Shown piece by piece: positions 1-9,803 of a stretch of DNA of 10,637 nucleotides. The stretch comes from Nitrospirota bacterium. Its GTDB lineage: Bacteria > Nitrospirota > Nitrospiria > Nitrospirales > Nitrospiraceae. The position numbers and the translations under genes were made by a program. Where the stretch lies: the NCBI GenBank assembly GCA_005877535.1, contig VBOM01000219.1, forward strand, positions 1 to 10,637. The letters run 5' to 3'. The notes beneath the pieces were generated by a model. It saw nothing but the letters and a program-made list of their open reading frames with translations, was not told the origin of the DNA and did not search any database. The first letter of the stretch is position 1. Each line of letters opens with the position of its first letter.

Positions 1-146
1 TGAAAGTCTCGGGGTTAGCCGTGCTGATCGGTGTGATCGAATCGATGTTTGCGAAGCTGCGTTTATTCAGAGTGACGGACTTGCTGGGGGTCGCCTTTAT
101 CCTGGCGCTGCTTGGGTTGGTCTTCTTCTACGTCTTGCGAGGATAA
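1..146 (+). CDS. hyfC: HyfC/HycD-like (NuoH-type) membrane subunit, C-terminal end only
   Basis: This is the last 47 codons of a gene that begins before the window; the reading frame runs from base 3 to the TAA at 144-146. The translation ends with an 'AKLRLFRVTDLLG' segment followed by a hydrophobic helix and the tail 'FFYVLRG'. An 'E..(M/V)AK.RLFRVP..LG' pattern followed by a last transmembrane helix is typical of the C-terminus of HyfC/HycD, the NuoH-like subunit of group 4 hydrogenases that anchors the soluble arm in the membrane. The next gene starts one base after the stop and is HyfE-like, as expected for a hyf-type operon, although E. coli hyf has hyfD between hyfC and hyfE. Only the tail is visible, so the assignment rests on this motif and on gene order. 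Confidence 0.8.
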   Translation, partial: KVSGLAVLIGVIESMFAKLRLFRVTDLLGVAFILALLGLVFFYVLRG

Positions 147-147
147 C

Positions 148-816
148 GTGTCGCTATTGACTCAGCACCTCGGATCTCAGTTAGTAGATTTGGGCTCGGC
201 GCTGTTGCTGCTGACATGCTTTGCGATTGTGGCGCAGCGGCGGCTCTCTGCCTGTGTCGATTTGTTCGCCCTCCAGTCGGTCTTCCTGGCCCTGACAGCA
301 GCCCTTGTCGCGTTTCTCACGGGTATTCATCACATTTACATCGCCGCCGCTCTCACCATCGTCATCAAGGTCGTGGTCATCCCGCGGATTCTGAAGCGAG
401 TGATCGAGCGGTTGAATGTAACACGTGAACTCCAAATGAACGTGAACGTGCCGACTGGGTTGTTGGTCTGTGGCGGGCTCGTGATCCTGGCGTTCTTCAT
501 CACCCAGCCCATCATCCCCCTGGGGTTTCTGCTGACGCGCGATTCGCTGGCGATTGCACTGGCGATCATCTTAATCGGGTTTTTTACGATGATCGCGCGC
601 AAGAAGGCGGTGACGCAGGTGATCGGATTTCTGGTCATGGAAAACGGCCTGTTTCTGGGGGCAGCAGCGGCCGCGTATGGGATGCCATTGATCGTGGAGT
701 TAGGCGTCTTCTTCGATGTCTTAGTGGGTGCGCTGATCATCGGCATCTATAGCCACAGGCTGCAGGACACCTTCGATAGCGTGGATACGAGCAAGCTCAC
801 GACCCTGAAGGAATAG
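148..816 (+). CDS. hyfE: Hydrogenase-4 component E-like membrane subunit (HyfE, NuoK-containing)
   Basis: A 222-residue integral membrane protein, close to the length of E. coli HyfE (about 216). I choose GTG at 148 because GAGG at 139-142 precedes it by 5 bases and it starts one base after the hyfC stop. The TTG at 112 lies inside hyfC. About six or seven hydrophobic helices are visible. The C-terminal half is the NuoK-like part, with acidic residues buried in helices: Glu165 in 'FLVMENGLFL', and Glu184 and Asp190 in 'PLIVELGVFFDVLVGALI'. In complex I, equivalent membrane glutamates belong to the proton path. HyfE-type subunits sit in the membrane arm next to the antiporter-like subunits. 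The neighbours (hyfC end upstream, hyfF 6 bases downstream) support the call. Confidence 0.88.
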   Translation: MSLLTQHLGSQLVDLGSALLLLTCFAIVAQRRLSACVDLFALQSVFLALTAALVAFLTGIHHIYIAAALTIVIKVVVIPRILKRVIERLNVTRELQMNVNVPTGLLVCGGLVILAFFITQPIIPLGFLLTRDSLAIALAIILIGFFTMIARKKAVTQVIGFLVMENGLFLGAAAAAYGMPLIVELGVFFDVLVGALIIGIYSHRLQDTFDSVDTSKLTTLKE

Positions 817-822
817 CATCAG

Positions 823-2307
823 ATGTCCTGGCCCCTGGTCCTTTTAGTCACAGCTCCGGTGATAGCGGGACTCGGAAGCCTGCTCGTGCGACAGCGGCGC
901 GTCATCGAAGTCCTTCAGTGTGCAAAGGTTGGGGCTATGCTGGCAGCTGCCGCGCTGGTTGCGGGACAAGTTATCGCTGCCGGCGAAGTATCTGTGGAAG
1001 GCTTTTTACGGACGGATGCGCTGAGCGCATGGCTTGATTTGATCATTGGCTTTGTGGGGTCTACCGGGACCCTGTATGCCGTTGGGTACATGGGCGAAGA
1101 AATGGATCGCACGCATCTGTCATCGAGACGCTACAGTCAGTTTTTTTGCCTGTTCGACCTATACCTCGCCGCGATGCTCTTGGCAGTCAATTTAGAAAAC
1201 ATCGCCATCATGTGGATCGCGATCGAAGGCTCCACCCTTTCGGCGGCGCTGTTGATCGGATTTGACCGGAGCAAGGCGGCGCTGGAGGCCGGCTGGAAAT
1301 ATATAATCCTGAGCTCGGTCGGCATTTCGCTCGCGTTGTTCGGCACCATCCTCGTGTATTACTCTTCGGAGCATGTCTTGGGCGTGTCGAATGAGGCACT
1401 GCGTTGGTCTCAACTCTATCGGGTAGCCGAGGGATTGGATCCCGGTGCGATCAAAGTGGCCTTCATTTTTTCGTTGATCGGCTACGGAACGAAAGCGGGG
1501 ATCGCGCCGATGCACACCTGGCTGCCCGATGCACATGCCGAAGCCCCCACACCGGTCAGTGCGATGTTGTCGGCGAATATGCTCACGCTCGCCGTCTACG
1601 CGATCTTGAGATTCAAGGCCGTGACGGATAGAACCGTTGGACCAGAATTTTCCGGCAAGCTGATCATTGGATTGGCGCTGCTGTCGCTCGCTGTCTCGGC
1701 GACCTTCATTCTGGTCCAGCGGGACTATAAACGGCTGTTCGCCTACTCTAGCATCGAACACATCGGGATCGCGTTGTTGGGGTTCGGCATCGGCGGCCTC
1801 GGAGTTTTTGCGGGCGCGTGGCATTTGATGAACCATGCCCTCGCCAAGTCCACGGCTTTCTACGGCGCCGGTCTCGTGTTTCTCCGGTACAATCACAAAT
1901 CGCTCGATCGCGTGACGGGCCTGCTGAGCCAGATGCCGATCGCAGGGACCGCTATCCTCGTAGCCGGCGTCGCTCTGGCGGGGATGCCGCCCTTCGGACT
2001 CTTTACCAGCGAAGTGTTGATCGCCATCGGAGCCTACCGCGCCAAGCCGGAAGTGACCTACGTGTTTCTATCTCTGCTTACACTCGCCTTTGTGACCTTG
2101 CTCTATCAGGTGTTACGAATGACGTTTGGAGCACCGGGGGAGGCAGGTACGGCCTTAGGCAGACAGTGCCGCATCTTTACGAGCGCCGCTGTCGGAATCA
2201 ACATCCTCTTGCTGGGAACCATCGGCCTCCACGTTCCACCTGGTCTGGAGGCGTTGCTGGCATCCATCATGAAGATCTTCGGCGGCGGGATGGAGGCGCC
2301 TCGATGA
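823..2307 (+). CDS. hyfF: Antiporter-like proton-translocating subunit, first HyfF-like copy
   Basis: 494 residues, strongly hydrophobic, with about 14 predicted membrane helices; belongs to the NuoL/M/N-Mrp antiporter family (Proton_antipo_M). The ATG at 823 is preceded by AAGGA at 808-812. The family's charged membrane residues are present: Glu135 in 'WIAIEGSTL', Lys159 in 'GWKY', Lys224 and His231 in 'GTKAGIAPMHTWLPDAH', and Lys342 in 'NHALAKS'. Together these form the usual Glu/Lys/Lys/Lys chain for ion translocation. The closest type is HyfF/HycC-like; E. coli HyfF is slightly longer (about 526). No long amphipathic lateral helix as in NuoL is evident at the C-terminus. The stop overlaps the start of the next gene (ATGA), which suggests translational coupling to the second, paralogous copy. 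Role in the complex: pumping H+ or Na+ across the inner membrane. Confidence 0.9.
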   Translation: MSWPLVLLVTAPVIAGLGSLLVRQRRVIEVLQCAKVGAMLAAAALVAGQVIAAGEVSVEGFLRTDALSAWLDLIIGFVGSTGTLYAVGYMGEEMDRTHLSSRRYSQFFCLFDLYLAAMLLAVNLENIAIMWIAIEGSTLSAALLIGFDRSKAALEAGWKYIILSSVGISLALFGTILVYYSSEHVLGVSNEALRWSQLYRVAEGLDPGAIKVAFIFSLIGYGTKAGIAPMHTWLPDAHAEAPTPVSAMLSANMLTLAVYAILRFKAVTDRTVGPEFSGKLIIGLALLSLAVSATFILVQRDYKRLFAYSSIEHIGIALLGFGIGGLGVFAGAWHLMNHALAKSTAFYGAGLVFLRYNHKSLDRVTGLLSQMPIAGTAILVAGVALAGMPPFGLFTSEVLIAIGAYRAKPEVTYVFLSLLTLAFVTLLYQVLRMTFGAPGEAGTALGRQCRIFTSAAVGINILLLGTIGLHVPPGLEALLASIMKIFGGGMEAPR

Positions 2308-3848
2308 ATTCGATCGTCGCGCCTGTGGTGGTCTTTCTCGGCGCACCGCTGCTGGCTGTCGTGCTGAGCTTGGCGACCACGCATGCCCGTCTGTTGCATG
2401 GGTTGAATCTCGCCACGATGACCGGCCTGGTCGTATCCGAGATAGCCCTCATCCAGCAGGTGCTGGCTCACGGACCCCAGACCGCGCTCTGGGGGTTGGT
2501 CTATATCGATGCGCTCTCTGCCTTCATTCTGTTCATCGTGACGTTTATCGGATTGGCCTGCTCGTTATATACGTGGACGTACCTCGATGATTACATGGCT
2601 CGGGGGATGATTACGCCAAGGCGTCTGAGCCAGTTCTTTGTTCTGTTTCACGGCTTCCTGTTGGCCATGATCGTGGCAACGATGGCGAACAGCCTTGGTG
2701 TGCTGTGGGTCGCCATTGAGGGAACGACGCTTGCCACGACGTTTCTGATTGCGTTCTTTCGAAAACGCGAAGGTTTGGAAGCGGGATGGAAATACCTGAT
2801 TCTCTGCTCGGTCGGCATTGCCTTGGCACTGTTCGGCACAGTGTTGACTTATTATTCGTCGGTCCGGGTCCTGGGAGATGAGAGCAGCGCGTTGAATGTG
2901 ACCAAACTCCTGGAAGTGGCAGGCCAATTGGATCCGCATGTGCTCAAACTTGCCTTCATCTTCCTCTTCGTCGGATACGGGACTAAGATAGGACTAGCAC
3001 CCATGCATGCCTGGGTGCCGGAGGCCTATAGCGAGGCGCCGGCCCCGGTCACGGCGATGCTGGCCGGAGTATTGGAAACCGTAGCCGTATATGCAGTGCT
3101 CCGCAGTAAGGCCATCATGGACCAGGCACTCCCGCCGGCCTTCACGGGCAATTTGCTGATGCTGTTCGGACTCATCTCGTTTGCGGTGGCTGCGCTCTTC
3201 ATCCTCATCCAGCGCGACTACAAACGGTTGTTCGCCTACTCCAGTGTGGAACACATGGGGTTTGTGATGGTGGGGTTCGGGGTAGGGGGGCCGATTGGAA
3301 CGTTCGGTGGACTGTTCCATTTGCTCAACCATGCGCTGGCGAAGGCACTGGCATTTTTCGCGGCGGGGAACGTGCATCGCCGGTATGCCACTCGTGAAAT
3401 CAGCGAGGTGCAGGGACTGGCGAACATTCAACCGATTACGGCGGTGGCGATGCTCGTCGCAGGATTGGCCTTGGTCGGGATGCCGCCGTTTTCGATGTTT
3501 GTCAGCGAGGTCATGGTCGTATCCGCGCTGGCCACTCAAAGTTTTGCCTCTGACACGTTGCATTTGGGAAGATTCCTTACGATCATCATTGCCCACGATG
3601 TGCGCAGTCTCGCGATTGTCACGCTGTTCCTCCTGTTTGCGGTGGCCCTGTTCGGGGGCTTCACCTATCGCATGGTCTCGATGGTGTGGGGCGCCGCGCC
3701 GGATGGCGTCAGACGCGGTGAGCCGTGGGATGTGGGACATGTGCCGCTGATCCTGACTGGTGCCGCATTGGTGGGGTTTGGTCTGGCGCTTCCGGAACCA
3801 GTGAAAGGGCTCATGGATCGGGCAGTCGCCATCTTAATGGTGAGGTAA
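2304..3848 (+). CDS. hyfF: Antiporter-like proton-translocating subunit, second HyfF-like copy
   Basis: 514 residues from ATG 2304, which overlaps the previous stop and has GGAGG at 2292-2296. The frame is open upstream to 1818, but that part lies inside the first hyfF copy and is not membrane-protein-like. The key residues are Glu139 in 'WVAIEGTTL', Lys163 in 'GWKY', Lys228 and His235 in 'GTKIGLAPMHAWVPEAY', and Lys347 in 'NHALAKA'. It is a clear paralogue of the preceding gene: both contain 'LALFGT' followed by 'YYSS', and 'QRDYKRLFAYSS' followed by 'EH'. An insertion around residues 395-415 (a hydrophilic stretch with 'SFASDTLHLGRF') lengthens the C-terminal half. It probably adds one more ion channel to the membrane arm. 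It could be assigned to HyfD or HyfB, but similarity to its neighbour favours a HyfF duplication. Confidence 0.9.
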   Translation: MNSIVAPVVVFLGAPLLAVVLSLATTHARLLHGLNLATMTGLVVSEIALIQQVLAHGPQTALWGLVYIDALSAFILFIVTFIGLACSLYTWTYLDDYMARGMITPRRLSQFFVLFHGFLLAMIVATMANSLGVLWVAIEGTTLATTFLIAFFRKREGLEAGWKYLILCSVGIALALFGTVLTYYSSVRVLGDESSALNVTKLLEVAGQLDPHVLKLAFIFLFVGYGTKIGLAPMHAWVPEAYSEAPAPVTAMLAGVLETVAVYAVLRSKAIMDQALPPAFTGNLLMLFGLISFAVAALFILIQRDYKRLFAYSSVEHMGFVMVGFGVGGPIGTFGGLFHLLNHALAKALAFFAAGNVHRRYATREISEVQGLANIQPITAVAMLVAGLALVGMPPFSMFVSEVMVVSALATQSFASDTLHLGRFLTIIIAHDVRSLAIVTLFLLFAVALFGGFTYRMVSMVWGAAPDGVRRGEPWDVGHVPLILTGAALVGFGLALPEPVKGLMDRAVAILMVR

Positions 3849-3852
3849 GAAT

Positions 3853-4884
3853 ATGGCTGATGCGCAAACAGCGGTGACTCGATTGAAGGAGGCCTATGGA
3901 GCATCCGTCGTGGAGATGACCTCGATCAATGGGACGCCGAGGCTGCGGGTTAAGAAAGATGAACTGCCACAAGTGGCGCATTATCTCCACACGCATCCGA
4001 ATTTGCGCGGAGCATTGTCACTCCTCTGGGCCGTGGACCATAGGCCCCGTGAATCTCGTTACGAGATCTGCTACCTCTTCACGCTGGCGGAGTGCAAGGA
4101 CTGGCTGTTGCTCTGCATGGATCTGCAGGGCGATGACCGTCTGTTCGGATCCATCACGCCTCATATCCACGCAGCGCAATGGTATGAGCGAGAGATCCGG
4201 GACATGTTCGGTCTAATCCCTGTCGGCCATCCCGACATGCACAGGCTTGTCCGCCATGAACATTGGCCCAAAGGATCCCATCCACTCAAAAAAGACTTCC
4301 AATGGGACACTGTCTTGGAGAGGACTCAAGGGCAGTACGAGTTCAGACAGATTGAAGGCGAAGGGGTCTTCGAGGTTCCCGTTGGACCGATCCACGCTGG
4401 CATCATCGAGCCGGGCCATTTCCGGTTCTCGGTCGCCGGCGAGCCCATCATGCAGCTCGAGATCCACCATTTTTGGAAGCACCGAGGCGTGGAGAAGCTC
4501 TTTGAGCGGCAGCAGCTCACGGAATCTGTGCCACTCGCCGAGCGGGTGTCCGGCGATACGACGGTTGGCCACAGTCTCGCATACTGCCAAGCGGTCGAAA
4601 TACTGATGGATGCTGAGGTGCCGCGCCGCGCCCGTTACCTTCGGAGTCTTTTTCTAGAACTGGAACGCTTACACAATCATCTGGGCGACGTCGGTGCAAT
4701 TTGCAACGACACGGCCTACGCTCTGCCCCATGCGCATTGTGGACGGATGAAAGAGCAGATCATGCAGCTTAATGACCGGCTGACGGGATCGCGGTTTCTG
4801 CGAGGGGTGAATTGCGTCGGCGGTGTCGGCATTGATCTGACCCGCGAGCAACTGACCCAGATCGTCGAAGAATTGACGCAGTGA
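3853..4884 (+). CDS. hyfG: HyfG/HycE-like large subunit, N-terminal part (NuoC domain plus first part of NuoD domain), nickel ligands missing
   Basis: 343 residues; ATG 3853 has GAGG at 3842-3845 inside the end of hyfF. Residues 1-150 are a NuoC (30-kDa) domain with the signature 'EREIRDMFGLIPVGHPD' (about 112-128). Residues from about 178 are the start of the NuoD/[NiFe]-hydrogenase large-subunit domain ('GPIHAGIIEPGHFRFSVAGE', 178-197). In catalytic group 4 hydrogenases the next motif is R-V-C-G-I-C; here residues 231-236 are R-V-S-G-D-T, so both nickel-binding cysteines are replaced (Ser233, Thr236). The flanking 'GHSLAY' and 'ERLHNHLGD' are kept. The frame stops at TGA 4882-4884, after 'LTQIVEELTQ', in the middle of the domain. 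The rest of the domain continues at 4881 in another frame. This points to an Ehr-type, non-hydrogenase large subunit that is broken or made in two pieces. Confidence 0.88.
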   Translation: MADAQTAVTRLKEAYGASVVEMTSINGTPRLRVKKDELPQVAHYLHTHPNLRGALSLLWAVDHRPRESRYEICYLFTLAECKDWLLLCMDLQGDDRLFGSITPHIHAAQWYEREIRDMFGLIPVGHPDMHRLVRHEHWPKGSHPLKKDFQWDTVLERTQGQYEFRQIEGEGVFEVPVGPIHAGIIEPGHFRFSVAGEPIMQLEIHHFWKHRGVEKLFERQQLTESVPLAERVSGDTTVGHSLAYCQAVEILMDAEVPRRARYLRSLFLELERLHNHLGDVGAICNDTAYALPHAHCGRMKEQIMQLNDRLTGSRFLRGVNCVGGVGIDLTREQLTQIVEELTQ

Positions 4885-5333
4885 TAGGGGTAGTGGGCCG
4901 TGCATCAGGCGTCGATCAAGATATTCGGCGTGACCATCCTTTCGCCGCCTATGGCGAATTGCCGCCCCAAACGGTGCTGTATCGGTACGGAGACGTCCGG
5001 GCTCGGATGCGGGTGCGTCTGGATGAGATCCATGAATCAATCCGACTCATCAGAGAAATTAAGCAGGGCATTACACAAGGGCCAGTTCTCACCCGGCCGA
5101 CTGTTGTGCCAGCTCCGGGAACCTGGGCATTCTCCGCGGTGGAGGGCTGGCGGGGCGAAATTTTTTACGTGGTAATGGCCGGCGAGCAAGGGAAGATTCA
5201 TCGGTGTAAGGTGCGCGACCCGTCGTTTGTAAACTGGCCTGCAATCCAATGGGCAGTGCTAGGGAATATCATTCCGGATTTTCCGCTGATCAACAAGAGC
5301 TTCAACCTGTCGTATGCAGGGAATGATCTCTGA
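4881..5333 (+). CDS. hyfG: HyfG/HycE-like large subunit, C-terminal part of the NuoD domain in a shifted frame, nickel ligands missing
   Basis: 150 residues. The GTG at 4881 overlaps the preceding TGA (GTGA); no good ribosome binding site is seen, so any translation would rely on coupling. It starts with 'GVVGRASGVDQDIRRDHPF', which matches the 'RASG...D.R.DHPF' block in the middle of HycE-type large subunits. It ends with 'GNIIPDFPLINKSFNLSYAGNDL' in two joined pieces of the family C-terminus. Where catalytic enzymes have D-P-C-x-x-C, residues 142-147 here are N-L-S-Y-A-G, so the second nickel-binding cysteine pair is also absent. The tail is short: HycE continues about 30 residues beyond its CxxC, including the part removed by the maturation protease, and none is present here. 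Compared with HycE, about 36-38 residues between the two halves are missing. It could be a decayed gene or a second polypeptide of a split subunit. Confidence 0.82.
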   Translation: MIGVVGRASGVDQDIRRDHPFAAYGELPPQTVLYRYGDVRARMRVRLDEIHESIRLIREIKQGITQGPVLTRPTVVPAPGTWAFSAVEGWRGEIFYVVMAGEQGKIHRCKVRDPSFVNWPAIQWAVLGNIIPDFPLINKSFNLSYAGNDL

Positions 5334-5441: not shown

Positions 5442-5951
5442 ATGTTTCGCATCATTAAGAAAAGTCTGAAGACCGGGGTCGTGACTGGCAAGTATCCCCG
5501 AGCGGAAACGCCTATTGTACCGGTTGTCCAAGAGGCTAAGGACAAGACCAAGCTCTTCAAACGGTCACTGACAATTCGAGAGGTGGACACGGGCTCCTGC
5601 AATGCCTGCGAGATGGAGATGAACGCGCTCATGAATCCCGTGTACGACGCCGAGCGGTTCGGCATACACATCGCAGCTTCGCCGCGCCATGCGGACGCGT
5701 TGGTGGTCACCGGCCCAGTAACCGTGAACATGGAGCGGGCGCTGAAAGATGTTTATAAACAGACGCCTGATCCGAAAATCGTTATCGCACTCGGTGACTG
5801 TGCCATCAATTGTGGGGTGTTCAAAGGCAGCTATGCCGTGACGGGGCCGGTAGACAAACACATTCCAGTCGATGTTCGTATTCCCGGCTGTCCACCACGA
5901 CCGTCTGAGATTCTCAACGTATTTACTGAACTGCGCAAAGCTGGGGATTAG
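5442..5951 (+). CDS. hyfI: HyfI/NuoB-like iron-sulfur small subunit
   Basis: 169 residues; ATG 5442 is preceded by AAAGGA at about 5432-5437. It belongs to the NuoB (20-kDa)/hydrogenase small-subunit family, the soluble subunit that holds the [4Fe-4S] cluster nearest the active site or quinone pocket. The cluster residues are intact: Cys53 and Cys56 in 'GSCNACEMEM', Cys120 (and Cys124) in 'ALGDCAINCG', and Cys150 in 'PGCPPRP'. The CxxC spacing is that of group 4 hydrogenases rather than the CC of complex I NuoB. It is shorter than E. coli HyfI or HycG (about 250) and lacks their long C-terminal tail, so it is essentially the core domain. It is the last gene of the operon. No HyfH/NuoI-type polyferredoxin gene lies between it and the large subunit, unlike in E. 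coli. The intact cluster ligands argue that the complex still carries out electron transfer. Confidence 0.9.
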   Translation: MFRIIKKSLKTGVVTGKYPRAETPIVPVVQEAKDKTKLFKRSLTIREVDTGSCNACEMEMNALMNPVYDAERFGIHIAASPRHADALVVTGPVTVNMERALKDVYKQTPDPKIVIALGDCAINCGVFKGSYAVTGPVDKHIPVDVRIPGCPPRPSEILNVFTELRKAGD

Positions 5952-6976: not shown

Positions 6977-8239
6977 ATGACACGGGCGAGGATCCTACAG
7001 GAGGTGAGACCGATGCGGTTTGAGGAGCTGTACGAGCGGCGACAACGGCGGGACGTGACGATGGCGGAGGCGGCCGAGATGCTGGGGGTGACGGAGCGCA
7101 CCTTTCGCCGCTGGAGTGGGCGCTATGACGCCGAGGGGCGGGAGGGATTGCTGGACCGGCGGATCGGTCGGGCCTCGGCCCGCGCGGTACCCGTGGATGA
7201 GGTACTGCGGATGGTGACGCTGTATGAAACCCGGTACACCGGCTGGACCGTGAAGCACTTCCACGAGTCCTGGCACGCCGAGCATGGCGGGACGCGGTCC
7301 TATAGCTGGACCAAGAAGACGTTGCAGGCTGCCGGCCAGGTGACTCGCGCGCCTCGACGTGGCGCGCATCGCAAGAAGCGGCCCCGTAAACCGTTGCCCG
7401 GCATGATGCTCCATCAAGATGGCTCCACGCATGAGTGGGTGCCCGGCTGTCAGTGGGACTTGATCGTGACGTTGGATGACGCGACCAGCGAGATCTATTC
7501 CGCCTTCTTCGTTGAGGAAGAAGGGACCCTGAGCAGCTTCCGGGGCCTGCGGGAGGTCATGGAGACGCAGGGGCTCTTCAGTTCCTTGTACACCGATCGG
7601 GGCTCCCACTACTGGCACACCGACGAGGCCGGAAGCAAAGTGGACAAGACCCGCCTGACGCAGGTGCATCGCGCCTTGCAGCAACTGGGGGTGCTACTCA
7701 TTCCCGCCTATTCGCCGGAAGCGCGGGGCCGGTCGGAGCGTACCTTCCGTACCCTGCAGGACCGGTTGCCCAAAGAGTTGGCACTGGCCGGGATCACGGA
7801 GATGGCGGCGGCGAATCGGTATCTGACGGAGCGGTTCCTCCCACAGCATAATACCCGGTTTATGGTGCGGGCGACCGAACCGGGCACCGCCTTCATCCCG
7901 TGGGTTGGCACGCACCTCGCCGAGATCCTGTGTGTGCAAGACGAGCGGGTCGTGGCCAAGGACAACACCGTCCACTATCACCGCCAGTGCCTCCAGATCC
8001 CGCAGGACCCCCACCGGTTCCATTATGTGAAGGTCACGGTGCGGGTGCACGAATATCCGGATCGGACCTTGGCCGTGTTCCATGGGCCTCGGTGTCTGGC
8101 CCGCTACCACGCGGATGGCCAGTTGATCGAGACCGGGCACGCCCAACCAGCCCGCAATGGCCCGACCCACGGATCGGACGTCCCGCCGATCGTCCATCCT
8201 AGGCCCACGGTGCGCGAAACAATTTCGGCGCGCGGCTGA
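6977..8239 (+). CDS. DDE transposase (ISNCY/IS1202-like, rve-type catalytic core)
   Basis: 420 residues; ATG 6977 has AAGGAGG at 6964-6970. The N-terminal part carries a helix-turn-helix (about 28-48, 'AAEMLGVTERTFRRWSGRY') for binding the IS ends. The integrase-type core shows Asp148 in 'LHQDGSTHEW', Asp207 in 'LYTDRGSHYW' and Glu254 in 'ARGRSERTF', spaced 59 and 47 residues, as expected for a DDE triad. The C-terminal region (about 330-420) is basic and His/Pro-rich. No stop or frameshift interrupts it, so it is likely active. It is a single-gene element with no accessory or passenger gene. An exact IS group would need comparison with ISfinder. Confidence 0.93.
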   Translation: MTRARILQEVRPMRFEELYERRQRRDVTMAEAAEMLGVTERTFRRWSGRYDAEGREGLLDRRIGRASARAVPVDEVLRMVTLYETRYTGWTVKHFHESWHAEHGGTRSYSWTKKTLQAAGQVTRAPRRGAHRKKRPRKPLPGMMLHQDGSTHEWVPGCQWDLIVTLDDATSEIYSAFFVEEEGTLSSFRGLREVMETQGLFSSLYTDRGSHYWHTDEAGSKVDKTRLTQVHRALQQLGVLLIPAYSPEARGRSERTFRTLQDRLPKELALAGITEMAAANRYLTERFLPQHNTRFMVRATEPGTAFIPWVGTHLAEILCVQDERVVAKDNTVHYHRQCLQIPQDPHRFHYVKVTVRVHEYPDRTLAVFHGPRCLARYHADGQLIETGHAQPARNGPTHGSDVPPIVHPRPTVRETISARG

Positions 8240-8708: not shown

Positions 8709-9803
8709 GTGACCTCTATTCTGAAAATGGAAAATCGTGGGATTTGGGTCTTGGCAATTTTATTGTTGCTGCCCGGTAGCACTTTCAACCCGATCTACTC
8801 CAGCAAGGACCTTGCGAACCTTCCTTGCGAGTCACCTTCTTCCAGGTTTTTCTACCCTGTGGAGTTCGATGCAGACGGCAACATTCTCTACGAGGATCAG
8901 CTGCATGCTGCGAAGGTTGCAGCACTAACACGGAGGGACATCATCATCTTCGTTCATGGTTGGGACAAAAGCGCGGGGAGCGTGGATGGAGACTATCAAG
9001 AGTTTCTGTGTCGTTTATACAGGCGTGGGGTGGAGGAACAGTATCTTGCCGAAGACCAGGCAATCGTCATCGGCGTGTTCTGGCCCTCTACAATCCTCCG
9101 CAATCACGAAGACTTCCCACTGATCAAACCCATCTCCTATTACATCATACGAGCACGGGCAGATACGATTGCAGTGGAAGGAATTCAAAAGCGGCTCTTA
9201 CCAGCGATCCTGGACACAGCAGAACTTGATCATGAGATGCGTCTTCACATTATCGGTCACAGTTTTGGCGCACGGAGGCTTATCAAGGCCGTTTCCGATT
9301 ATTTTCGTACGAGCATCATAGAAGACCTTCCTCACTACGTTAGCTCTGTAAACGTTGTCCTTCTCCTGCCCGCGATCGAACCAGGCATAGAGAATTCGCA
9401 GGCATCACAATTTATTTTAGAGATAAACCGGGGGTTGGGCGAGAGGCATCGAGTGAGCCGTATGAAGCCAGAATATCTGAGAATATTCAATGTCTACTCT
9501 GAACGGGATTGGGCTAACCGTTTTCTCTTCCCTATCAGTGAAGCGCTCAATTTCAAGATGCCCTACTGTTCGATTGGGGCATGCGGAGAACCTTCTGCCC
9601 CTGTGCTCACTCTTGACGAGGCCGGAACTATCAACGAGTTGACGTCCAATATTGGTAGAATCTGGAACGTCAATGCAGACTCAATCATCTCGTCCCATTC
9701 AGACATCTACAAGGGTCGAATCGCCGGGTTGATTTGGAAATTGATTACTACAAAGGAGTTAGCTCCGAGTGATCTGGCGATAACCAAGTCACTTACGCCG
9801 TAG
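8709..9803 (+). CDS. Exported or membrane-anchored alpha/beta-hydrolase of unknown substrate
   Basis: 364 residues from GTG 8709, which has AGGAAG at 8695-8700. ATG 8727 is an alternative start but lacks a ribosome binding site. An N-terminal hydrophobic segment ('GIWVLAILLLLPG', about 11-23) after Lys/Arg residues is a signal peptide or signal anchor. The alpha/beta-hydrolase fold is shown by 'IIIFVHGWD' (oxyanion-hole His83-Gly84), the nucleophile elbow 'IIGHSFGA' with Ser185, a probable acid Asp267 (or Glu265) in 'NVYSERDWAN', and His330 in 'IISSHSDIY'. The order and spacing fit a complete Ser-Asp-His triad, so an esterase, lipase or related activity is likely. The substrate cannot be told. 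The gene is visibly richer in A/T than the hyf operon and stands alone beside gene fragments, which suggests horizontal acquisition. I do not recognise a named family. Confidence 0.75.
   Translation: MTSILKMENRGIWVLAILLLLPGSTFNPIYSSKDLANLPCESPSSRFFYPVEFDADGNILYEDQLHAAKVAALTRRDIIIFVHGWDKSAGSVDGDYQEFLCRLYRRGVEEQYLAEDQAIVIGVFWPSTILRNHEDFPLIKPISYYIIRARADTIAVEGIQKRLLPAILDTAELDHEMRLHIIGHSFGARRLIKAVSDYFRTSIIEDLPHYVSSVNVVLLLPAIEPGIENSQASQFILEINRGLGERHRVSRMKPEYLRIFNVYSERDWANRFLFPISEALNFKMPYCSIGACGEPSAPVLTLDEAGTINELTSNIGRIWNVNADSIISSHSDIYKGRIAGLIWKLITTKELAPSDLAITKSLTP

Follow-up and report, generated by a model that had tools for sequence, protein, structure and literature searches.

The window, by which we mean the whole stretch of DNA that was analyzed, is a complete contig of 10,637 bp (G000:C51) from a draft Nitrospiraceae MAG (2.33 Mb in 505 contigs, 79.8% complete). 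Its plus strand carries genes for a HyfE-like protein, two HyfF-type antiporter-like subunits, a HyfG-like large subunit in two pieces (EhrL), and a HyfI-like small subunit (EhrS), followed on the 3' side by a peroxiredoxin gene on the minus strand and then by an IS481-like transposase (Table 1). The matching gene content, together with the loss of both CxxC motifs from the large subunit, indicates that this is almost certainly an Ehr (Ech/energy-converting hydrogenase-related) complex, as the preliminary description of the locus had proposed. Ehr has been published in this group (PMC12342949, PMC10284858, in the sections available), being present in about half of Nitrospirales genomes according to the excerpted text of PMC12342949, and was presented there and in parts of PMC10284858 and PMC10432482 as a hydrogenase-like complex without Ni-Fe sites and of unknown function. 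From its sequence, Ehr descends from a group 4 [NiFe] hydrogenase of the formate hydrogenlyase type.

Table 1. Features of the 10,637-bp window
Feature	Position	Strand	Evidence and remarks
HyfE-like membrane subunit (EhrC-type)	112..816	+	NCBIfam NF008556 (hydrogenase 4 membrane subunit) E 3.3e-32, below cut-off; PF00420 weak, below cut-off; longest ORF, real start possibly further 3'
First HyfF-type antiporter-like subunit	823..2307	+	PF00361 E 1.1e-51; top NCBIfam matches are hydrogenase 4 subunit F, below cut-off
Second HyfF-type antiporter-like subunit	2298..3848 (start approximate)	+	PF00361 E 7e-58
EhrL piece 1: NuoC-like part and first half of NuoD/HycE-like part, with RVSGDT	3853..4884 (343 aa)	+	PF00329 E 7.2e-26; PF00374 26.1 bits; 89% identity to the intact 530-aa P0001
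EhrL junction, 112 nt of intact relatives missing	4875..4876	+	DNA alignment with 7 intact genes
EhrL piece 2: C terminus with NLSYAGNDL, different frame	4881..5333 (150 aa)	+	PF00346 E 7.4e-26; 81% identity to P0001 residues 379-530
EhrS: HyfH/HycF-type N-terminal anchor (residues 1-20), linker, HyfI-like domain, one [4Fe-4S] site	5442..5951	+	PF01058 E 1.1e-34; top PDB matches MbhJ and HycG
IS481-like transposase	6977..8239		HTH and LZ_Tnp_IS481 domains; ~1 kb 3' of the Ehr operon
364-aa ORF	8709..9803		No Pfam match; HGWDKSAG and GHSFGA resemble an alpha/beta hydrolase (by eye)

Relatives share the gene order HyfB (~675 aa), HyfC (~316 aa), HyfE, one or two HyfF, EhrL (HyfG), and EhrS (HyfI). 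The window holds E, F, F, L, and S and to all appearances is the 3' part of such an operon, with B and C expected past the contig end; relatives covering the full stretch have both. A search for a HyfB orthologue across the assembly (79.8% complete) found none, the best match (34%) being the window's own HyfF. Two-HyfF operons were also seen in L035, L087-L091, and L033 (in the latter split by unread bases), and single-HyfF operons retain either the first or the second window-type copy (L036, L161, and L164 versus L040, L041, and L043). A close copy of EhrL was detected in 52 of the 98 family genomes drawn (E at most 1.1e-60; two partial). At the phylum level, a profile search of 245 genomes gave matches in 241, NuoD-type genes included, and the 40 regions retrieved comprised 36 Ehr places and four Nuo-like paralogues.

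The preliminary description took the "first part" and "second part" of the large subunit as given and mentioned neither a broken gene nor the missing HyfH module (see below). In intact relatives EhrL is a single protein, 530 aa in most of the 120 listed, with identities to the window of up to 89% among the matches listed. The window gene differs from seven of seven aligned intact genes by a single 112-nt gap that shifts the frame and falls inside a helical part of the protein; the stretches of P0001 with a match in the window are residues 1-342 and 379-530, and the two pieces overlap by 4 nt (GTGA). Compared with L006, the dN/dS values were 0.085 (piece 1) and 0.146 (piece 2), against 0.261 and 0.088 for the control pair L006-L041, most other pairs being saturated. 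Hence, judging from the dN/dS of both pieces, the window EhrL either broke recently or reflects faulty assembly of a fragmented MAG. The out-of-frame gap would also fit a pseudogene in a species that is losing Ehr, and 46 of the 98 family genomes lack a close copy, a count uncorrected for genome incompleteness. We regard this as possible but lean against it, since both pieces appear to be under purifying selection by the values above, the remaining operon genes in the window are open, and a draft MAG in 505 contigs makes mis-assembly plausible. Another large-subunit gene serving the operon was rejected as an explanation: when the assembly (79.8% complete) was searched with intact P0001, only the two EhrL pieces and a NuoC/NuoD pair on contig C80 were recovered.

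The large subunit had been described as having both nickel-binding cysteine pairs, L1 and L2, replaced, and comparison with relatives bears this out. The motifs read R231-V-S-G-D-T236 in piece 1 and N142-L-S-Y-A-G147 in piece 2, which terminates with NDL150. In a PDB search, the best solved relative of P0001 was E. coli HycE (7z0s_E, E=1.4e-76), on which RVSGDT aligns with RVCGIC and NLSYAG with DPCYSC. We then compared 92 Ehr large-subunit rows, distinct over their last 300 residues and including window piece 1, of which 88 extend to the L2 columns. Both L1 cysteines were absent from 92/92 rows and both L2 cysteines from 88/88, so their loss is not due to chance; since intact relatives show the same motifs, the change is a trait of the lineage and not damage. 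For the same reason, a CxxC hidden by a sequencing error was ruled out. At the position of HycE C241 there was Ser (89 rows) or Ala (3), and at C244 Thr (73), Ser (17), Gly (1), or Asp (1), while C531 corresponded to Ser in 88/88 and C534 to Gly in 87 and Glu in one. The proton-route residues named in the accessible part of the HycE structure paper (PMC9474812) were nearly all preserved in the 92 rows: E193 in 92, H284 in 92, R395 in 88 (Lys in 2, gap in 2), E437 in 87 (Asp in 1, gap in 4), and R478 in 87 (His in 1, Ser in 1, gap in 3). These alignments show the four Ni-Fe cysteines replaced by a pocket of conserved Ser, Thr/Ser, Ser, and Gly, with the proton-transfer residues around it retained. 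The pocket is thus conserved, not in decay. As for the maturation-protease tail, whose absence had also been pointed out, EhrL stops about where the cleaved tail of HycE starts (at what we take to be the cleavage point), and thus no such tail is expected.

EhrL as an orthologue of NuoD was considered and rejected, as the tree places Ehr with HycE/HyfG and away from NuoD (with long-branch warnings). The pocket is likewise no copy of that of complex I. In the column of the beta1-beta2 loop that contributes to the complex I quinone site, His was found in 4/4 Nuo-like rows and Ile in 91/92 Ehr rows, and in the L1 column Tyr in 4/4 and Gly in 91/92, respectively. The canopy residue Asp529 is Asn in 76/88 Ehr rows. 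Because these quinone-site positions are not conserved in Ehr, the acceptor may be something other than a quinone. AlphaFold2 models were too poor for inspection of the pocket, with mean pLDDT values of 57.6 for EhrL (P0001, 31 rows) and 44.4 for the window EhrS (5 rows).

The cysteines of the HyfI-type cluster were said to be kept, and the window EhrS indeed has all four ligands of the proximal cluster, with its CNAC motif aligned on HycG. Among 90 distinct Ehr small subunits, collected without requiring the anchor, 89 had the complete CCCC set of proximal [4Fe-4S] ligands, the exception being L111. The N terminus of EhrS is of the HyfH/HycF type. The PDB search with its first 51 residues alone gave no match, and the anchor was afterward compared one to one with HycF and HyfH of E. 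coli. Residues 1 to 20 are identical to HycF at 11/20 positions (0/100000 shuffles as good) and to HyfH at 7/20 (2/100000), versus only two identities with HycG and one with HyfI. The N terminus of HycF carries a short amphipathic helix at the membrane, a feature that every solved member of the superfamily is described as having (PMC9474812, sections available). The E. coli genes hyfH and hyfI lie next to each other and overlap by 4 nt. The anchor pattern was matched in 40 of the 43 loci L003-L045 (some genomes are represented twice, and the window is among them) but not in L012, L023, or L044, with a search pattern that itself demands the first residues of the anchor. These comparisons show that the window lineage has lost the electron-input domain of HyfH and keeps of it only an N-terminal anchor of the HyfH type, which is joined to HyfI. 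Of a HyfH/HycF subunit with two [4Fe-4S] clusters, the window has the anchor in EhrS alone, the upstream genes of the contig lying beyond view. A phmmer search (E<=1e-5) for separate counterparts of E. coli HyfH, HycF, HyfA, HycB, HyfJ, HycH, and HycI in loci L003-L045 and L058-L126, many carrying only 1.5 kb of flank, returned only three ORFs, all of them EhrS fusions.

Several loci preserve more of the domain. L112 and L113 have HyfI fused to a HyfH domain in which both cysteine motifs are complete, whereas in L092, from the same class as the window, 4/8 ferredoxin cysteines remain, and L111 has a similarly decayed ferredoxin domain and has also lost one proximal ligand. In the latter EhrS (L111:1918-2691) the proximal cysteine is replaced by Gln, perhaps a cluster-free form. 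Among the matches listed from 395 phylum genomes, 12 rows span the ferredoxin domain, in addition to the G219/L092 row; their 12 fused small subunits (L127-L138) all have two complete ferredoxin motifs, and the eight other returned loci have none. Most of the other matches listed start past the domain; those of G019, G106, and G416 start inside it, G019 and G106 reading through a stop. Fused forms of ~250 aa are common in other phyla (SAR324, Deltaproteobacteria, Spirochaetes, and Bacteroidota, among the best 120 of 7999 matches). In a tree of 37 rows, which omits the long-branched L111, the 26 domain-less rows did not form one clade (AU p 0.00068, for a group defined after an earlier quick tree) but three, and therefore three losses of the ferredoxin domain are indicated if regain is impossible or unlikely; parsimony alone permits two changes (one loss and one regain). 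The fused clade is long-branched, and the placement of L092 is weakly supported (83/54).

The nine single-contig genomes were searched for the domain elsewhere. The decayed ferredoxin domain of L092 gave no match in them, in a search run without a positive control. The NuoI family had 25 copies above the cut-off, 24 of them >100 kb from Ehr and one, in G012, at ~8 kb. This gene (L191:9689-10291), which codes for a 200-aa two-cluster protein, sits among a DabA gene and genes resembling those for Fe-S assembly. As a possible orphan NuoI, it speaks mildly against a wire-free complex in G012, where it could in principle restore the electron wire. The DabA gene (inorganic carbon transporter; L191:10951-14277) also lies within ~8 kb of Ehr in this closed genome.

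With respect to the marks of a [NiFe] group 4 hydrogenase, Ehr lacks the two Ni-Fe CxxC motifs, and 40 of the 52 Ehr-positive family genomes have no HypD, which is required for the Fe(CN)2CO group; among the single-contig Ehr-positive genomes, HypD is missing from 7/9. HypD was not found in the window assembly (79.8% complete), nor HycI in the Ehr loci retrieved. The occurrence of HypD is independent of Ehr (12/52 Ehr-positive versus 13/46 Ehr-negative genomes; Fisher p 0.64). The absence of Ni ligands, and that of HypD from most Ehr-positive genomes, supports the earlier suggestion that the complex does not handle H2.

In many loci the operon has a sigma-54 two-component system as its neighbor, made up of a histidine kinase with a PAS or HAMP domain and an NtrC-type regulator. 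Both were found <=9 kb upstream in 14 of the 27 loci having >=8 kb upstream, by raw count (Pfam was run on seven kinases and two regulators, the others being assigned by BLAST cluster). Nitrospira genomes have many sigma-54-type regulators of this kind, and formate hydrogenlyase is likewise under sigma-54 control. Nine loci (eight genomes; L152 repeats L041) have genes of the 2-oxoacid:ferredoxin oxidoreductase (OFOR) type <=2.6 kb upstream on the same strand, and L167 carries a full OFOR gamma-alpha (TIGR03710 E 5.5e-177) and beta pair plus a PF02552 protein. The alpha-like protein of L157 (Nitrospiraceae) gave no match to the thiamine-binding domain, and since this domain is lost, the OFOR-like protein in question may be no enzyme. 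In most listed loci, this thiamine-domain-less protein (L157:12986-14455, L041:1675-3150) has as its neighbor a member of PF02552 (CODH beta/ACS epsilon), and a PDB search with the PF02552 neighbor found no match. OFOR-like genes occurred in 17/98 family genomes, more often in Ehr-positive (14/52) than in Ehr-negative ones (3/46; Fisher p 0.008, kinship ignored), and lay near Ehr on the Ehr contig in eight of the 98. There was no match in the window genome, where the upstream side of the contig is missing, but its near relative L033 has the gene. We consider this neighborhood a hint toward ferredoxin metabolism, short of proof. Upstream of the hyfB-like gene, a ~310-aa protein with a carboxypeptidase-regulatory-like domain (L041:3803-4735 and 13 other loci) is often the nearest same-strand gene.

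Compared with known systems, the Ehr complexes of Nitrospirales and Geobacter (GSU0739-0745), as far as described in the accessible text, share a group-4-like large subunit without CxxC, membrane subunits of the HyfB, HyfC, HyfE, and HyfF types, and EhrS, with no difference from the window complex at the family level. E. coli formate hydrogenlyase-1/-2 (Hyc/Hyf) have the same proton-path residues and, in hyf, the same B-C-E-F-G-I gene order, and HycE is the closest solved large subunit to EhrL; in contrast, Ehr has no Ni-Fe ligands, HycB/HyfA, HycF/HyfH ferredoxin domain, or protease tail. With respiratory complex I, and with its 2M form from the same organisms, Ehr shares the superfamily architecture, the lack of Ni ligands, and, in many operons, an extra antiporter-like subunit. 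Unlike these complexes, it has the hydrogenase-type CxxC motif in the small subunit, without the tandem-cysteine N2 motif of NuoB, and neither NuoI nor an NADH module in the operon, and the His/Tyr quinone-site residues of NuoD are absent. The MBS/Mbx complexes of Pyrococcus are also group-4-derived, non-hydrogenase, and ion-translocating, which for Mbx is covered in part in PMC6349859. The large subunit of 6u8y, presumably of this complex, scored far below HycE against P0001 (E 3.3e-24 versus 1.4e-76). That Nitrospirales Ehr is devoid of Ni-Fe sites was already known; what we found here are the fusion of the HyfH anchor to HyfI, the loss of the ferredoxin domain, and the conserved Ser/Thr/Ser/Gly pocket, along with the frequent lack of HypD and the neighboring genes described above. 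The literature searched (titles and abstract starts, a scope that leaves out the founding work of Coppi and of Marreiros) showed no case of HyfH fused to HyfI or of an Ehr that has lost its wire, and there was no mention of either in the available sections of PMC6349859, PMC10284858, PMC7894505, PMC8691401, PMC10432482, and PMC9474812.

What could such a complex do? The preliminary description held that it probably couples electron transfer to ion pumping, which agrees with the retained cluster cysteines, proton path, and antiporter-like subunits and less so with the loss of the HyfH wire. Most likely, Ehr would still carry out proton-coupled redox chemistry that links a single cluster to a pocket without metal and is tied to the movement of ions. 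In our proposal, electrons would pass between the single EhrS cluster and the former Ni-Fe pocket, where an organic compound, most likely a quinone, would serve as acceptor. The cluster would now be exposed to a soluble low-potential partner, which could be ferredoxin or a directly docking oxidoreductase such as OFOR. Protonation in the pocket would drive the passage of ions through the antiporter-like subunits HyfB and HyfF or be driven by it. Two HyfF copies, present in many operons, could let more ions move for each electron, an effect that the accessible part of PMC6606698 proposes for 2M complex I. In these autotrophs Ehr would probably often run backward, spending proton-motive force to obtain low-potential electrons for CO2 fixation, the direction of electron flow being a guess. 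Quinone as acceptor and ferredoxin or OFOR as partner are our least-bad guesses, and the pocket speaks partly against a complex-I-like quinone site; the OFOR link also has against it that it is a minority feature of the family. Taken as a whole, i.e., cluster-fed proton-coupled electron transfer tied to ion transport by a formate hydrogenlyase-derived Ehr, of which the window holds a broken or mis-assembled copy, this account may well be right, and we advance it tentatively.

The soluble arm could instead be non-catalytic and Ehr a Mrp-like multi-subunit cation/proton antiporter, with the hydrogenase-like head serving as a plug or redox sensor. The loss of the Ni-Fe site together with that of the electron-input wire, the scatter of the domain-less EhrS forms over more than one clade, and the lack of an adjoining redox partner in most operons examined would all suit such a transporter. 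We nevertheless think it unlikely, given that the proximal-cluster cysteines persist in nearly every small subunit and the catalytic-type proton path in nearly all 92 large-subunit rows, and that the strongly conserved pocket residues would be unneeded in a plug. More doubtful still is Ehr as the membrane partner of a formate dehydrogenase, in which formate oxidation would feed the complex and a quinone would replace protons as acceptor. In E. coli, formate dehydrogenase reaches the small subunit through the adaptors HycB and HycF, which have no separate counterpart in the Ehr loci retrieved, and no formate dehydrogenase was among the recurrent neighbor families identified (annotated neighbors only). 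In favor of such a partnership are formate hydrogenlyase being the closest solved relative, the greater abundance of Ehr proteins in formate-grown Geobacter sulfurreducens (PMC7894505, text available), and the FDH-Ehr proposed in Riflemargulisbacteria and Saganbacteria (PMC6349859, likewise). Of similarly low probability, in our opinion, is a bolder form of the cluster-fed proposal, by which Ehr discarded its own electron wire more than once and a soluble oxidoreductase plugs onto the single EhrS cluster. The partner in autotrophic Nitrospira would be, or have been, OFOR, with proton-motive force driving the reductive carboxylations of the rTCA cycle directly and the new Ser/Thr/Ser pocket exchanging electrons with quinol.

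The series that goes from a full ferredoxin domain through a decaying one to a bare anchor suggests that the electron input can be removed from a machine of the complex I type and that the proton path and pocket stay under selection afterward. This turns what gets to the last cluster into a directly testable question. For nitrifiers using the rTCA cycle, the accessible part of PMC6606698 points to no known mechanism supplying low-potential ferredoxin other than the 2M complex I hypothesis. Ehr, carried by about half of the Nitrospirales, would be a second candidate for this supply.
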